Shown: one piece after another, positions 47,779-61,649 of the stretch
How positions within the stretch are numbered: the first letter of the stretch is position 1
How the letters are laid out: every line of letters begins with the position of its first letter
NCBI RefSeq assembly: GCF_002150785.1
Contig: NZ_MTAZ01000019.1
Coordinates: 124,001-188,000, forward strand
Length of the DNA stretch: 64,000 nt
Source: Arenibacter amylolyticus
Lineage (GTDB): Bacteria > Bacteroidota > Bacteroidia > Flavobacteriales > Flavobacteriaceae
Direction: 5' to 3'
The notes under the pieces: generated by a model
Databases searched by the model: none
What the model saw: the letters and a program-made list of their open reading frames with translations, nothing else
Told to the model about the DNA's origin: nothing
Translations under genes and position numbers: made by a program

Positions 47779-48954
47779 ATGCAACATTACAAGACAATAT
47801 CACAATCCTTTAAGGTGCCTTACGAATATAAGCTCCACTTTACAGAACATATTTTTGGGCAAGATAATGCTATGTTCAAGGATTTGATAAAAGATTATAA
47901 TCCCAAAGGGAAGGTAAAGGTGCTTTTTGTAATCGATAGTGGGGTGTTGGAATGTCATCCCAAACTATCCGATGAAATTACCGCCTATTGCCAAAAATAC
48001 CAAGCAGAAATCCATGGAACCGAACAAATAGTAATCCCCGGAGGGGAGCAATGTAAAAACGACTACGGAAATGTAGAGCGGATATTGCAGGGCATTAATG
48101 ATAATCGAATCTGTAGGCACTCCTTTGTTGTAGCCATAGGAGGCGGAGCCATCATAGACATGGTGGGATACGCTGCGGCAATTGCACATAGAGGGGTTAA
48201 ATTAATCCGTATTCCCACTACCGTATTATCGCAGAACGATTCTGCTGTGGGCGTAAAGAATAGTATTAATATTTTCGGGAAAAAGAATTTCTTGGGCACT
48301 TTTGCCCCGCCTTATGCAATCATTAATGATCCTCATTTCTTAACCACCTTGGAACAGCGCGATTGGATCTCTGGAATTTCGGAAGCTATAAAAGTAGCCC
48401 TTATTAAGGATGAGGTGTTTTTTAGTTTTCTGGAAGAAAATAGCGGTAAGCTAAGAGTTCGGGATATGGAGGCCATGCAATACCTGATCTATCGATGCGC
48501 AGAAATGCATATGGAACATATTGCGCAAGGGGGAGATCCCTTTGAAAGCGGTTCTTCCAGGCCGTTGGATTTTGGGCATTGGGCAGCCCATAAATTGGAG
48601 TTCATGACCAATTACCAATTGAGACACGGGGAGGCCGTTGCCATAGGGATGGCTTTAGATCTTACCTACGCCCACCTAAGTGGATTGATAACGATGGAAA
48701 CCTTGGAGCGTATTTTGGCTGTAATGGAGACTATCGGGTTCGATCTACATATCCCCTTGTCGGAGCAGAATGAAATAGAGGAGCTATTAAACGGTATTGA
48801 GGAATTTAGGGAGCATTTGGGGGGAGAACTTACCATTACCCTCATCAATAAAATTGGCGTTAAACACGATGTCCACGTTATAGATAGGGATGTCATGAAA
48901 AATGCCATCATGTGGCAAAATAACAAGTTTCAACCAAAAATATCAATGCAATAG
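47779..48954 (+). CDS. eboD: Sugar phosphate cyclase-like protein, EboD
   Basis: A 391-residue protein of the dehydroquinate-synthase superfamily. NAD-binding GGGAIIDMVGYAAA is at 121-134, the metal ligands Glu202, His267 and His283 are present, and Arg261 and Lys160 are kept. It differs from AroB at SQNDSAVGVKN (151-161; AroB has QVDSSVGGK) and at LDFGH (263-267; AroB has LNLGH). It is therefore a sugar phosphate cyclase of unknown product rather than shikimate AroB. It is 11 bases after eboC and overlaps eboE by one base. Confidence 0.88.
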   Translation: MQHYKTISQSFKVPYEYKLHFTEHIFGQDNAMFKDLIKDYNPKGKVKVLFVIDSGVLECHPKLSDEITAYCQKYQAEIHGTEQIVIPGGEQCKNDYGNVERILQGINDNRICRHSFVVAIGGGAIIDMVGYAAAIAHRGVKLIRIPTTVLSQNDSAVGVKNSINIFGKKNFLGTFAPPYAIINDPHFLTTLEQRDWISGISEAIKVALIKDEVFFSFLEENSGKLRVRDMEAMQYLIYRCAEMHMEHIAQGGDPFESGSSRPLDFGHWAAHKLEFMTNYQLRHGEAVAIGMALDLTYAHLSGLITMETLERILAVMETIGFDLHIPLSEQNEIEELLNGIEEFREHLGGELTITLINKIGVKHDVHVIDRDVMKNAIMWQNNKFQPKISMQ

Positions 48955-50147
48955 TGCTGATTAAAGATAAATTTCACCTTAGTTATTGTACTAATATACA
49001 CCCTGGCGAAGATTGGAAGCAGACCTGGGAGAATTTGGAGGCAGCCCTTCCAAAGATAAAACAGCAGGTTTCACCAGAGCAGCCTTTTGGCGTGGGATTG
49101 CGACTTTCCAATGTAGCAAGTTTGGAACTTCAACAGGGAAATAGACTACAGGAATTTAAAGATTGGTTAGATCGGAACAATTTGTACGTCTTTACCATGA
49201 ACGGATTTCCTTATGGGAATTTTCACAACGAAAGGGTAAAGGATAGGGTGCATGCCCCAGATTGGACCACGGATGAGCGCTTAACATATACCCAAAGACT
49301 TTTTGATCAACTCGCTTTCCTATTGCCCCAAGGCCTTGAAGGGGGAATATCTACCTCACCTATCAGTTATAAGTTTTGGCATAGCGGTAGTGAGGCTACA
49401 GATAAAGCTTTTAAACAGGGGGCAACTAATCTGGCTGAGGTGGCCTTGCAGTTGGTAGGTATTGAAGCGCGTACAGGAAAGTACCTGCATCTGGATATTG
49501 AACCGGAACCGGATGGAATGTTGGAGAATAGTAAGGAGGTTTTACAGTTTTATGATGCCTATCTCCTTCCTATTGGAGCTAGTATTTTGATGGAAAAACT
49601 AGGGTGTTCTAAGGCCAAAGCAAAGGAGTTATTGCTTAGGTACCTTACGATCTGTTATGATGTATGCCATTTTTCCCTTGCCTATGAGGAACCAAAAGAT
49701 ACTATTGGAAAATTTAGAGAAGCCGGAATTAAAGTAGGTAAGATACAAGTGAGTTCTGCTTTGAAAATTCTGTTTAATGAAGGGGATAGGGAAGCTATAT
49801 GGCAGTCCTTGGATCGGTTTAATGAACCCACTTACCTACATCAGGTTACCCAAAAAAAAGGAGACCAAGTAATTACCTTTAGGGACTTACCGGAATTATT
49901 GGCTAATAAAGAAGATTATAATGAATTGAGGGCACACTTTCATGTGCCAATTTTTATAGAGCAATACGAATCCTTATTTTCTACCCAAGATCAGATTTTA
50001 AAAGTGTTGGAACTCCTTAAAGAGGACGCATTTTCTAATCATTTGGAAATAGAGACCTATACATGGGATGTATTGCCAAAAGAGTTGAAATTGGAACTAA
50101 CAGCATCCATAGTTCGAGAAATTAATTGGTTAAAGAATAAGTTGTAA
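48954..50147 (+). CDS. eboE: Metabolite traffic protein EboE (TIM-barrel)
   Basis: A 397-residue protein of the xylose-isomerase-like TIM-barrel fold, starting with GTG at 48954 inside the eboD stop (TAGTG). The metal-like positions are in LDIEPEPDG (180-188) and CYDVCHFSLAYE. EboE relatives are annotated as metabolite traffic proteins and have sugar isomerase or endonuclease folds, but no reaction is known. It is followed after 2 bases by eboF. The GTG start fits the length of relatives. Confidence 0.88.
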   Translation: MLIKDKFHLSYCTNIHPGEDWKQTWENLEAALPKIKQQVSPEQPFGVGLRLSNVASLELQQGNRLQEFKDWLDRNNLYVFTMNGFPYGNFHNERVKDRVHAPDWTTDERLTYTQRLFDQLAFLLPQGLEGGISTSPISYKFWHSGSEATDKAFKQGATNLAEVALQLVGIEARTGKYLHLDIEPEPDGMLENSKEVLQFYDAYLLPIGASILMEKLGCSKAKAKELLLRYLTICYDVCHFSLAYEEPKDTIGKFREAGIKVGKIQVSSALKILFNEGDREAIWQSLDRFNEPTYLHQVTQKKGDQVITFRDLPELLANKEDYNELRAHFHVPIFIEQYESLFSTQDQILKVLELLKEDAFSNHLEIETYTWDVLPKELKLELTASIVREINWLKNKL

Positions 50148-50149
50148 TC

Positions 50150-51526
50150 ATGAAGAAGACGGTTGTAATAAATGTGGTTGGATTGACCAGGGGGATTATT
50201 GGCGAGCACACTCCCTTTATAAAATCATTTTTGGAAAAAGGGAGCTGGGGAACCATTACTCCGCAGTTACCTGCAGTTACCTGTTCTGCACAGGCTACGT
50301 ATTTAACGGGGAAAACACCAGCAGACCATGGAATCGTGGCCAATGGTTGGTATTTTAAGGAAGAGCACGAAATTAAGTTTTGGAGACAATCTAATACCTT
50401 AATCCAAGCAGATAAGATATGGGACAAGATGAAAAAGGAAGATCCCAATTTTACCTGTGCCAACCTTTTCTGGTGGTATAATATGTATTCTAATGCCGAT
50501 TTTAGTGCAACCCCAAGACCAAATTATTTGGCAGATGGGAGAAAAATTCCCGACTTTTACTCGCATCCAGCAGAACTGCGCGACAAGCTCAGGGCAGAAT
50601 TGGGAGATTTTCCGCTGTTCCATTACTGGGGCCCAAAAACCTCTATAAAATCCAGTCAATGGATAGCCGATGCTGCCATTAGAACCGATGAGATGCATAA
50701 CCCAACCCTTAGTTTGGTGTATTTGCCACATTTGGATTATAATATGCAGCGACATGGTATCGATTTTTCAAAAATAGGCAAGGACCTTCGTGAAATAGAC
50801 GCGGTTGTTCAACAATTGGTAACTTATTATGAGAGTAAATCTGCCCATGTTTTACTTCTTTCCGAATATGGGATTACCAATGTCAACAATCCCGTTCACT
50901 TGAATAGAATTTTGAGAAGAGAAGGCTATATAAATATCCGGGTAGAACGTGGCTTAGAATTGCTAGATGCAGGGGCAAGTGATGCTTTTGCAGTGGCAGA
51001 CCATCAACTGGCCCATATATATGTAAAGGATAAGAAGAATATCGAGAAGATCAAAACCCTGCTACAAAAAGTGAAGGGGGTAGAAAAAGTGTTATCCGGG
51101 GATCAATTAAAAGAGGCGCAATTAGATCACGAACGAAGCGGAGACTTGGTGGTTGTTGCCGATAAGGATTCTTGGTTCACCTATTATTTTTGGTTAGATG
51201 ATAAAAAAGCGCCAGATTATGCGAGAATGGTGGACATCCATAAAAAACCGGGTTATGATCCCGTGGAAATGTTGACCGATCCTAAGGATAAGCTGGTGAT
51301 GCCTAAGGTGGCATGGAAATTACTGAAGAAGAAACTTGGATTTAGGACGGTATTAGATATTATTCCATTGGATGCTAGCCTGATAAAGGGTTCCCATGGT
51401 AGAATACCAGAGGATAGTAAGGATCTTCCCATCCTAATAAGCAACCGAGGTGGGATTGATGTCCCAGATTCATTATTGGCAACCGAGGTCTTTGGAATTA
51501 TAGAAAATCATATCTTGGGGAACTAA
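50150..51526 (+). CDS. eboF: Phosphodiesterase/nucleotide-pyrophosphatase-like protein, EboF
   Basis: A 458-residue alkaline-phosphatase-superfamily protein with the NPP core. The candidate nucleophile is Thr44 (PAVTCSAQATYLTG), and the last metal histidine is in GSHGRI. The first metal aspartate is replaced (NVVGLT where NPPs have DG), and the usual SDHG is SEYG. The D/H pair in LDYNMQRHG has altered spacing. These differences look family-wide for EboF, so activity may be lost or changed. It is the last gene of the eboB-F operon. Confidence 0.85.
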   Translation: MKKTVVINVVGLTRGIIGEHTPFIKSFLEKGSWGTITPQLPAVTCSAQATYLTGKTPADHGIVANGWYFKEEHEIKFWRQSNTLIQADKIWDKMKKEDPNFTCANLFWWYNMYSNADFSATPRPNYLADGRKIPDFYSHPAELRDKLRAELGDFPLFHYWGPKTSIKSSQWIADAAIRTDEMHNPTLSLVYLPHLDYNMQRHGIDFSKIGKDLREIDAVVQQLVTYYESKSAHVLLLSEYGITNVNNPVHLNRILRREGYINIRVERGLELLDAGASDAFAVADHQLAHIYVKDKKNIEKIKTLLQKVKGVEKVLSGDQLKEAQLDHERSGDLVVVADKDSWFTYYFWLDDKKAPDYARMVDIHKKPGYDPVEMLTDPKDKLVMPKVAWKLLKKKLGFRTVLDIIPLDASLIKGSHGRIPEDSKDLPILISNRGGIDVPDSLLATEVFGIIENHILGN

Positions 51527-58517: not shown

Positions 58518-59246
58518 GTGAAAATAATTGCAATGATACCCGCCCGTTATGCTGCTTCCAGATTCCCTGGGAAATTAATGCAGGACTTACAGGGAAAACC
58601 AGTTATCCAGAGAACTTATGAGGCAGCGGTTAATACTGGCTTGTTCGAGGAAGTGTACGTAGTAACGGATAGCCCCGTAATTTATGAATGTATTAGCAAT
58701 ATTGGTGGAAAGGCCATTATGAGCAAAAAGGAACACGAATGCGGGAGTGATCGTATCGCCGAGGCTGTAGAAGCCATGGATGTAGATATTATTGTGAACG
58801 TACAAGGGGATGAGCCTTTTACAGAACGCAAAAGCTTGGCCGATGTTATTGAAGTCTTTAAGGACGATCATGATAAGGAGATAGACCTAGCTTCCCTGAT
58901 GACACGGATCACGGATTGGGTAGAGATCAACGATCCCAACACTGTAAAGGTTATAGTGGATAAGCAGCATTTTGCCCTATATTTTTCAAGAGCCCCTATT
59001 CCGTACCCTAGAGCTAGGGAGTTAGATATACCTTACTTTAAGCACAAAGGTATTTATGCCTTTAGAAAGCGTGCTTTAATGGATTTCCAGCGATTGCCCA
59101 TGCAAATACTGGAAGCAACCGAAAAAATTGAGGCGATCCGATATTTGGAATATGGTAAAAAAATAAAAATGGTGGAAACCAATGTCTCGGGAATTGAAAT
59201 AGATACTCCAGAAGACCTGGAAAAGGCTAAAAGTGTATGGAAGTAG
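58518..59246 (+). CDS. kdsB: 3-deoxy-manno-octulosonate cytidylyltransferase
   Basis: A 242-residue enzyme that activates Kdo (or 8-amino-Kdo) with CTP for lipopolysaccharide core synthesis. The nucleotide-binding motif [13 protein letters not shown] is at about 7-19, and further motifs are NVQGDEPF and SRAPIPYPR. The start is GTG at 58518. It overlaps the HAD gene by 10 bases and is near a KdnB-like oxidase, so it may act on Kdo8N as the Shewanella enzyme does. Confidence 0.93.
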
Positions 59247-59959
59247 ATTATAGCAAAATTAAGGTAATTGGTTTTGATGCGGATGATACCTTATGGGTAA
59301 ATGAGACCTATTTTAGGGAGACCGAGGAGAAGTTCGCCAACCTTTTGGAAAAATATGAAACCAAGAACAAAACGGATCAAGAGCTCTTTAGGACCGAAAT
59401 GGAGAATTTGGGGCTTTATGGATACGGGATAAAGGGGTTTGTGCTATCTATGATAGAGACTGCTTTAGATCTTTCCAATAATAAGGTTTCTCAAGCAACA
59501 ATTACAGAAATCCTAGACCTAGGGAAGCAAATGTTGTCTCACCCAGTGGAGTTGTTGGAGGGGGTAGAGGAAGTGCTGCAGCAATTAAAGGATAGGTACC
59601 GCTTAATAGTTTTAACCAAGGGAGATTTGTTGGACCAGGAGCGGAAATTAGAAAAATCTGGACTCTCCAAATACTTTCATCATGTGGAAGTGCTCAGTGA
59701 TAAAAAAGAAGACAATTATAAAAAGCTCTTGGAACATCTTCAAATTCCCGTTTCGGAATTTTTGATGGTAGGAAACTCCTTAAAATCAGACATCTTGCCC
59801 ATTGAAAACATTGGGGCAAAAGCGGTTCATATCCCATTTCATACCACCTGGCAGCACGAGGTAGTGGAGCTAGAGGAACATCAGAACGGCCATCTTACCC
59901 TTAACTCCCTTTCCGAGCTTTTAAAATATCTAAACTATAGTAATGGAAATAAGGAATAA
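59237..59959 (+). CDS. HAD-family phosphatase between kdsB and kdnB
   Basis: A 240-residue haloacid dehalogenase-fold hydrolase. The catalytic FDADDT (Asp14, Asp16) is complete, motif II is VLTKGD, motif III is the Lys in KEDNYKK, and motif IV is [11 protein letters not shown] helical cap follows motif I (C1 type, YjjG-like), which makes it unlike KdsC, a capless phosphatase of the Kdo pathway. The substrate is unknown. It overlaps kdsB by 10 bases and the next gene by 17 bases, implying linked expression. Confidence 0.85.
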
Positions 59960-61064
59960 GGAGGTAGATACAAGTACTAAGGTAAATGCCAAATTTAGGA
60001 ATTTCCCCATGGTGCCTAGGGTGATATTTGGCAAGGGTAGTTTTGATCAGTTAGGGGAGATTTTACTTCCAAAAAGGAAAAATTCCGAAGCCCCTATGAT
60101 CTATTTGATCGATGATGTATTTGAAGGGGGATCACTAATTTCTCGGATTCCTAGGTTTCCCAATGACCAGATTATTTTTATATCGGCAGATGAGGAGCCA
60201 AAAACTGCACAGGTAGATTTTTTGACAGATGGGATACGTAGTCAATTTAGTCAACTTCCCTCCGGAATAGTTGGCATAGGGGGAGGCACCTTATTAGATT
60301 TGGCCAAAGCGGTGGCCATTATGCTGAATAACGAAGGAAGGTCCCAGGATTATCAAGGTTGGGACTTGGTGAAACAACCGGCTATCTATCACGTGGGGAT
60401 ACCCACCATCAGTGGTACTGGTGCCGAGGTGTCTAGGACTACGGTCTTATTGGGACCAGAGAAAAAATTGGGCATCAATTCCGATTTCACTCCTTTTGAT
60501 CAGGTGGTGTTAGATCCAGACCTTACTAAGGGGGTTGCTAAAGACCAGTGGTTTTATACGGGAATGGACTGTTTTATCCATTGCGTGGAATCCCTAAATG
60601 GTACCTTTTTAAATGCCTTTAGCCAGAGTTATGGAGAAAAAGCGCTAGAACTCTGCAAGGAGGTCTATTTGGAAGATTTGGAAGATGCGGACGCTAGGGA
60701 TAAATTAATGATGGCTTCGTGGCATGGGGGTATGAGTATTGCCTACTCGCAAGTGGGTGTTGCCCACGCTATGAGTTATGGACTGTCTTACTTGCTGGGA
60801 GTGCGACATGGGATAGGGAATTGTTTGGTTTTTCAGCATTTGGAAGAGTATTATCCAGAAGGGGTAGCCCTCTTTCATGCAATGAGGAAAAAACATCAAA
60901 TAAACTTACCCAAAGGAATATGCAGCGACTTAACGGATAGTGATTATGATATAATGATTAGGGTGGCCCTAAGTTTGGAACCGCTTTGGGAAAATGCATT
61001 GGGCAAGGAATGGCGCTCAATCATAAGTCCTGAAAAGTTAAAAGCTATTTATCAAAAAATATAA
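59943..61064 (+). CDS. kdnB: Iron-containing alcohol dehydrogenase, KdnB-like (Kdo 8-oxidase)
   Basis: A 373-residue group III iron-type dehydrogenase. The nucleotide motif GIGGGTLLDLAKAVA is at about 98-112, and the metal ligands are in FYTGMDCFIHCVE and the histidines of VGVAHAMSYG and GVRHGIGN. It resembles KdnB of Shewanella, which oxidises C8 of Kdo before KdnA adds an amino group. Next to kdsB this gives a route to Kdo8N. The partner aminotransferase KdnA is not in the window. Confidence 0.8.
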   Translation: MEIRNKEVDTSTKVNAKFRNFPMVPRVIFGKGSFDQLGEILLPKRKNSEAPMIYLIDDVFEGGSLISRIPRFPNDQIIFISADEEPKTAQVDFLTDGIRSQFSQLPSGIVGIGGGTLLDLAKAVAIMLNNEGRSQDYQGWDLVKQPAIYHVGIPTISGTGAEVSRTTVLLGPEKKLGINSDFTPFDQVVLDPDLTKGVAKDQWFYTGMDCFIHCVESLNGTFLNAFSQSYGEKALELCKEVYLEDLEDADARDKLMMASWHGGMSIAYSQVGVAHAMSYGLSYLLGVRHGIGNCLVFQHLEEYYPEGVALFHAMRKKHQINLPKGICSDLTDSDYDIMIRVALSLEPLWENALGKEWRSIISPEKLKAIYQKI

Positions 61065-61109
61065 GTTTTAATTGATCCTTCCCGTTTGGAGGGTACTAAT
61101 TTAGCATGC

Positions 61110-61649
61110 ATGCATACCCTCGCAAAATTCATATACTTTAAAATTATGGGGTGGAAACTAATCGGTTCCTTTCCTAAAGTGGATAAATGTGTGGTAATCG
61201 TAGTGCCACATACCAGTTGGGTCGATTTCTTTCTTGGGCTTCTGGTGCGCAGGGTGCTTAACGAGGAGATTAATTTTATTGGAAAGAAGAGCTTGTTTAA
61301 GCCCCCCTTTGGCTGGTATTTTCGTTGGATGGGCGGTACGCCTATAGATAGGAGTAAAAATATGGATACCGTAAGGGCAACGGTAAAAATCTTTCAACAG
61401 AAAAAACAGTTTAGACTTGCCCTTTCACCAGAGGGAACGCGGAAAAAGGTAAGTGAATGGAAAACGGGATTTTACTATATTGCAAAAGCCGCCGAAGTCC
61501 CAATTGTATTGGTTGCATTTGATTTTGGGGAGAAACAGGTAAAGATTTCAACACCCCATTATCCAACAGATGATAAGGAGTTGGATTTTAAAACCTATAA
61601 AGCTTTTTTCAAGGGGGTGATGGGAAAAATCCCTGAAAAAAGCTTTTAG
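61110..61649 (+). CDS. Short PlsC-family acyltransferase
   Basis: A protein of about 179 residues from ATG 61110 (MHTLAKFIYF); a TTG at 61086 is less likely. The catalytic motif PHTSWVD has the normal His-x4-Asp spacing, and the second motif is SPEGTRKK. This compact group transfers acyl chains to lysophospholipid-like acceptors. It lies 45 bases after kdnB on the same strand, so it may join the lipopolysaccharide cluster. The exact acceptor is unknown. Confidence 0.85.
   Translation: MHTLAKFIYFKIMGWKLIGSFPKVDKCVVIVVPHTSWVDFFLGLLVRRVLNEEINFIGKKSLFKPPFGWYFRWMGGTPIDRSKNMDTVRATVKIFQQKKQFRLALSPEGTRKKVSEWKTGFYYIAKAAEVPIVLVAFDFGEKQVKISTPHYPTDDKELDFKTYKAFFKGVMGKIPEKSF

Follow-up and report, generated by a model that had tools for sequence, protein, structure and literature searches.

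Predicted synthesis of 8-amino-Kdo in Arenibacter amylolyticus from a kdsB-HAD-kdnB locus and an unlinked kdnA

Overview

Arenibacter amylolyticus probably makes 8-amino-3,8-dideoxy-manno-octulosonate (Kdo8N) by the Shewanella route, as judged from a kdnB orthologue adjoining kdsB and a kdnA orthologue elsewhere in the genome. In the proposed scheme, KdsC would release Kdo, KdnB would oxidise its C8 hydroxyl to an aldehyde, the unlinked KdnA would transaminate this C8 aldehyde, presumably with glutamate as the amino donor, KdsB would activate the resulting Kdo8N as a CMP sugar, and WaaA would add it to lipid A. KdsB, KdsC (above its cut-off) and WaaA are all encoded in the genome, while the activities of KdnB and KdnA and the use of Kdo8N in lipopolysaccharide are predicted from sequence. 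The enzymes belong to a known type, here in organisms new to it, and the case for the predicted pathway is strong. To our knowledge, Kdo is nearly universal in lipopolysaccharide, and this unusual amino-Kdo sugar may reach well beyond Shewanella. The association of KdnA and KdnB with kdsB in many marine flavobacteria and Desulfobacterota predicts that the lipid A junction of these common environmental bacteria is altered in charge.

Organisation of the locus

The window, i.e. the whole stretch of 64,000 nucleotides that was analysed, corresponds to C14:124001-188000 of a 3.99 Mb genome in 101 contigs. The features considered here are the following.

58518..59246, + strand: kdsB, CMP-Kdo synthetase family; GTG start, 242 aa; above cut-off for TIGR00466 and NF003952, with solved KdsB relatives
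59196..59204, + strand: codons of KdsB residues 227-229 (Glu-Ile-Asp); Glu227, where Gly is usual, with Asp229 two residues further on
59237..59959, + strand: HAD phosphatase, optional neighbour; 240 aa; PF00702; closest solved relatives 3ddh and 2pke
59943..61064, + strand: kdnB, predicted Kdo 8-oxidase orthologue; 373 aa; PF00465; match to 5k8c
61086..61649, + strand: PlsC-type acyltransferase, conserved next gene; PF01553

The first-pass annotation had described a cluster of three overlapping genes, and this holds: in the ORF list of the window kdsB, HAD and kdnB all lie on the + strand with overlaps of 10 and 17 nt, and each has a family match (TIGR00466, 189 bits where 155 is the cut-off; PF00702, 65 bits; PF00465, 77 bits). 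Among the best 80 of 538 KdnB relatives in named genomes, the nearest in kdsB are Arenibacter loci (kdsB 89%, upstream helicase 88-90%). Elsewhere in the window, at 47875-51526, a weak Fe-ADH-family match is followed by two ORFs that look by eye sugar-isomerase-like and alkaline-phosphatase-like, a row reminiscent of an ebo-type cluster.

KdnB and KdnA

The best solved relatives of the window KdnB are 5k8c, a 3-deoxy-alpha-D-manno-octulosonate 8-oxidase (E 2.7e-139), closely followed by 3rf7 (E 2.1e-136); other Fe-ADHs come in only from 1e-23, which argues for full-length orthology with KdnB, apart from other Fe-ADHs. The gene first described as a KdnB-like oxidase next to kdsB is thus a clear KdnB orthologue. 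In the alignment it keeps D209, H213, H275 and H289, the Asp-His-His-His set that we take to be the metal ligands of Fe-ADHs. None of the NCBIfam models names KdnB or KdnA above its cut-off, and plasmids searched with KdnB gave zero matches at E 1e-60. The FeADH3 (cd08184) subfamily within the type III alcohol dehydrogenases, to which the window enzyme may belong, has KdnB as its one listed characterised member in the part of PMC5125639 consulted.

The partner aminotransferase had been reported as not visible, which is correct for the window and incorrect for the genome. Nine PF01041 matches occur in the genome, of which the four strong ones were translated in the search for KdnA, and the suggested search found a kdnA orthologue at L004:1351-2553(-), equivalent to C10:122583-123785, i.e. 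on a contig other than that of kdnB. Its product has the Kdo8N transaminase 5k8b as its best solved relative (E 3.8e-149, the second best being at 3e-50) and carries K186, which is presumably the PLP lysine and is present in 19/19 KdnA orthologues. The concern over a missing KdnA is thereby set aside, and since the orthologue is present, the absence of KdnA, half of the refutation proposed by the first-pass annotation, does not refute the Kdo8N reading.

The entries 5k8c and 5k8b are, we assume, the Shewanella oneidensis KdnB and KdnA. As in that system, a full-length orthologous oxidase and transaminase are found here, with KdsB beside KdnB. The two systems differ in that here kdnA lies on another contig, HAD stands between kdsB and kdnB, and the phylum is another; in Shewanella, kdnA is presumably in the same operon.

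Co-occurrence in Bacteroidota

Among 296 Bacteroidota genomes, 22 carry KdnB at E 1.1e-96 or better, the rest giving 3e-30 or worse. KdnA orthologues (E 1.1e-109 or better) occur in 19 of these 22 carriers vs 0/274 others (Fisher p 4e-27, not corrected for kinship). Together with the two orthologues in the genome, this co-occurrence across the phylum strengthens the original proposal of a Shewanella-type route. Weaker KdnA-like matches were left out of the orthologue count, namely that of G131 (1.5e-84) and those of a block of f17 genomes (about 2e-74 to 2e-64). A KdnA orthologue is lacking in three carriers: G118, and the f17 genomes G145 and G169, both of which have a weaker KdnA-like match.

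It is very improbable that KdnB and KdnA are relics, or enzymes of another substrate, and that no amino-Kdo is made. Decay does happen: all four metal ligands are retained in 21/22 Bacteroidota KdnB, and the exception, the G118 homologue, has lost two of them. Against a relic in A. amylolyticus stand the full length of both genes, the conserved metal ligands and PLP lysine, the near-exclusive similarity to the characterised KdnB/KdnA pair and the tight co-occurrence of the two proteins. The G118 homologue itself (L246, 6645-7721, - strand) is 44% identical, bears the substitutions H213Q and H275R, and is kept in a kdsB-HAD row; a search of G118 found no KdnA, and its KdsB has Gly227. Loss of the pathway would be expected to leave such a combination, and we propose that the G118 protein is a decayed or repurposed enzyme.

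Gene order in relatives

The best 80 of 538 KdnB relatives in named genomes comprise 62 loci of flavobacterial type (L138-L199), among them the kdnB locus of Zobellia uliginosa DSM 2061 (L141), and 18 others (L200-L217). In the former, kdsB lies at most 2.6 kb upstream of kdnB in 62/62 loci, HAD stands between them in 52/62 and is absent in 10/62, and PlsC is directly downstream in 58/62; the constancy of the kdsB-(HAD)-kdnB order means that the arrangement is not due to chance. Among the 18 others, kdsB is near in six and HAD in none.

The transaminase gene joins the locus in several relatives. The order kdnA-kdsB-HAD-kdnB is contiguous in G029, so that kdnA shares the operon of kdnB there, unlike in A. 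amylolyticus. The order kdnA-kdsB-kdnB is found in G196, in the Cyclobacteriaceae locus L201 and in the Chitinophaga loci L211 and L215, and kdnA-kdnB-kdsB in L216. In G249 the order is kdnA-kdnB-kdsA-kdsC-like-kdsB, the KdsC-like protein falling short of its cut-off (49 against 208 bits). These gene orders link the two enzymes to Kdo metabolism.

Lipid A or a surface polymer

The substrate of the pair could instead be Kdo, or an ulosonate related to it, destined for a surface polymer, lipid A keeping plain Kdo. We consider this unlikely, although some divergent loci lend it substance. G145 (L243, L244) and G169 (L245) encode a KdnB-like oxidase of 42-43% identity, and an additional kdsB lies at a distance of 16-20 kb; the G145 stretch, where the figure is 42%, resembles a polysaccharide cluster on visual inspection. 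In G181 (L247:5390-8422, - strand), a KdnA-like aminotransferase, an Fe-ADH and a NeuA/PseF-type CMP-sugar synthetase stand in a row, which we propose to be an amino-ulosonate module; in other f17 genomes, KdnA-like and Fe-ADH matches lie near each other by coordinates.

The literature also provides an argument for plain Kdo in lipid A. A 2011 review (PMC3210612) treats Kdo8N as peculiar to Shewanella and sets this genus apart from every other known lipopolysaccharide. It also cites the core of Arenibacter certesii, solved in 2005, so that the contrast drawn with Shewanella counts against Kdo8N in A. certesii. Both this review and PMC4052302, in the sections at hand, describe Kdo8N under Shewanella; the latter states that it is confirmed in 'other bacterial species', with three papers cited, the two identified ones being on Shewanella. 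A Leptospira paper, in its accessible portion, names a gene kdnB by annotation only (PMC8510873). For Capnocytophaga canimorsus, a core with a single plain Kdo is reported (PMC3342949). Within the literature searched, seen in part, no report of Kdo8N in Bacteroidota was met; outside that scope fall the A. certesii core paper, a 2007 review and the two original papers on the pathway (Gattis 2013; Zachman-Brockmeyer 2016).

Two observations weigh against a surface polymer as the destination in A. amylolyticus: the KdsB family (PF02348) has a single gene in the whole genome, and kdnB keeps its place beside kdsB in every one of the flavobacterial-type loci among the best 80 of 538. Incorporation of Kdo8N at lipid A remains the preferred reading. 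Counting against it are the unlinked position of kdnA in this genome and the occurrence of KdnA homologues in KdnB-free Desulfobacterota, described below.

The interposed HAD phosphatase

The HAD protein has a motif of the DxDxT type, which we take to be HAD-type. It resembles two solved HAD hydrolases over most of its length, 3ddh (E 1.8e-73) and 2pke (E 3.9e-52), both solved without a named function. KdsC belongs to a family distinct from all three, and the KdsC-family models TIGR01670 and NF007019 are absent from the matches of the window HAD at E 0.001. A separate KdsC-type protein, above cut-off, is encoded on C48 of this genome, and for this reason a role of HAD as a KdsC replacement was rejected.

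The insertion of HAD had been read as a possible sign of a variant pathway. In such a route HAD could, for example, remove the phosphate from an intermediate based on Kdo or Kdo8N, an idea that is compatible with the Shewanella-type route; it is nevertheless improbable. In its favour, HAD overlaps both neighbours here, stands between them in most flavobacterial-type loci among the best 80 of 538, and lies between kdsB and a CAT-family gene in G088, which has no KdnB. At E 1e-30 it is present in 58/296 Bacteroidota genomes and is enriched with KdnB (16/22 carriers vs 42/274 KdnB-free genomes, not corrected for kinship). The same figures also speak against it, HAD being absent from six of the 22 carriers and from ten of the 62 loci, and present in 42 genomes that have no KdnB. 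Moreover, neighbours vary at the ten inspected HAD loci without a linked kdsB (a CAT-family gene adjoins HAD at three of them, picked out by eye), and kdsC is encoded separately. A specific role in the pathway is thus unsupported and the variant-pathway claim is not borne out; HAD is regarded as an optional operon member, either a bystander or an auxiliary phosphatase.

Residue 227 of KdsB

Shewanella KdsB prefers Kdo8N. In the main KdnB group, Glu227 is found in 84/84 KdsB, vs 1/35 from Bacteroidota without a working KdnB (Glu 1, in G160; Gly 26; Ala 7; Ser 1). The 84 sequences come from the window, 14 genomes, the 62 named loci and seven further loci (one of Desulfobacula), some being of the same species; the 35 are from 34 Bacteroidota without KdnB and from G118, with its defective KdnB. 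Left out of the 84 are the divergent carriers G091 (Cys227) and G249 (Ser227), as well as G145 and G169, whose extra kdsB encodes Ala at this position; G146 and G190 also lie outside. Twenty further Bacteroidota KdsB have no Glu227, 15 from f17 genomes having Gly and five from other genomes Ser; 14 of these 15 f17 genomes, which include G145, have a weaker KdnA-like match. Gly227 is present in all seven solved KdsB seen as alignments (two of them near-copies).

Asp229 of the window KdsB probably corresponds to D219 of the Aquifex enzyme, by the offset of match ends. According to the part of PMC3149649 consulted, Aquifex D219 binds Mg-A in the active site. Glu227 may favour Kdo8N by facing its C8 ammonium; the single-sequence fold of KdsB (mean pLDDT 32.6) was unusable.

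Ten genomes behind named loci extend the comparison. Glu227 is found in three of three of Chitinophagaceae type and in five of seven of Desulfobacterota type, one being the Desulfobacula already counted; G299 has one Glu227 copy, one Gly copy and a fragment, and G302 has Ser. Exceptions among genomes with kdnA or kdnB include G249 (Ser), G091 (Cys), G302 (Ser), G306 (Pro) and one copy of G382 (Pro). Conversely, the G160 KdsB (L232) has Glu227 in a genome where neither a KdnA nor a KdnB orthologue was found.

On a tree of 162 KdsB, built without the residue-227 column, Glu changes 11 times and KdnA 13 times. In seven independent pairs differing in KdnA, Glu on average shifts along with KdnA in 2.7, shifts against it in 0.0 and shows no difference in 4.3; these pairs agree in direction, and are so few that a sign test cannot reach 0.05. 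The Glu227 signature is thus a new lead, testable yet imperfect, suggestive of Kdo8N use without being exclusive to it, and offers a one-position prediction of sugar specificity.

Desulfobacterota

In 198 Desulfobacterota genomes, KdsB was found in 187 (E 1e-25), KdnB in 21 (E 1e-50) and a KdnA homologue in 50 (E 1e-60). Fifteen of the KdnB are of the main type (53% identity or more) and six are divergent (41-43%). A KdnA homologue accompanies the main type in 15/15 genomes and the divergent type in 1/6, and occurs in 34/177 genomes with neither. Residue 227 was compared in 110 KdsB from 108 genomes, a sample biased by its selection among the top matches listed for a Glu-type query: Glu227 is present in 43/47 KdsB of KdnA-positive genomes (the others being Pro 2 and Gly 2) vs 21/63 of KdnA-negative ones. 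As a strict marker of the pathway, Glu227 is weakened by these Desulfobacterota and by the divergent kdnAB group without Glu, being neither necessary nor exclusive.

A broader proposal is offered tentatively, as one that we would sooner doubt than rely on. Kdo8N lipopolysaccharide would be widespread in marine Bacteroidota and sulfate-reducing Desulfobacterota. Substitution by Glu next to the catalytic aspartate would have occurred repeatedly and made KdsB a CMP-Kdo8N synthetase, so that core chemistry could often be read from KdsB. In some Desulfobacterota, the place of KdnB would be taken by a different Fe-ADH, encoded immediately before KdnA and KdsB.

Nine KdnB-free, KdnA-positive loci were viewed. 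In L327, L330 and L344, a full-length Fe-ADH-like ORF stands directly before kdnA and kdsB, its Fe-ADH kinship having been checked for L330 (ORF at L330:260-1423) and L344; this non-KdnB Fe-ADH is possibly a second type of Kdo 8-oxidase. L322, L342 and L343 do not show the row, which is seen by eye in L331, L335 and L339. The KdsB of the L327 and L330 genomes are of the Glu type.
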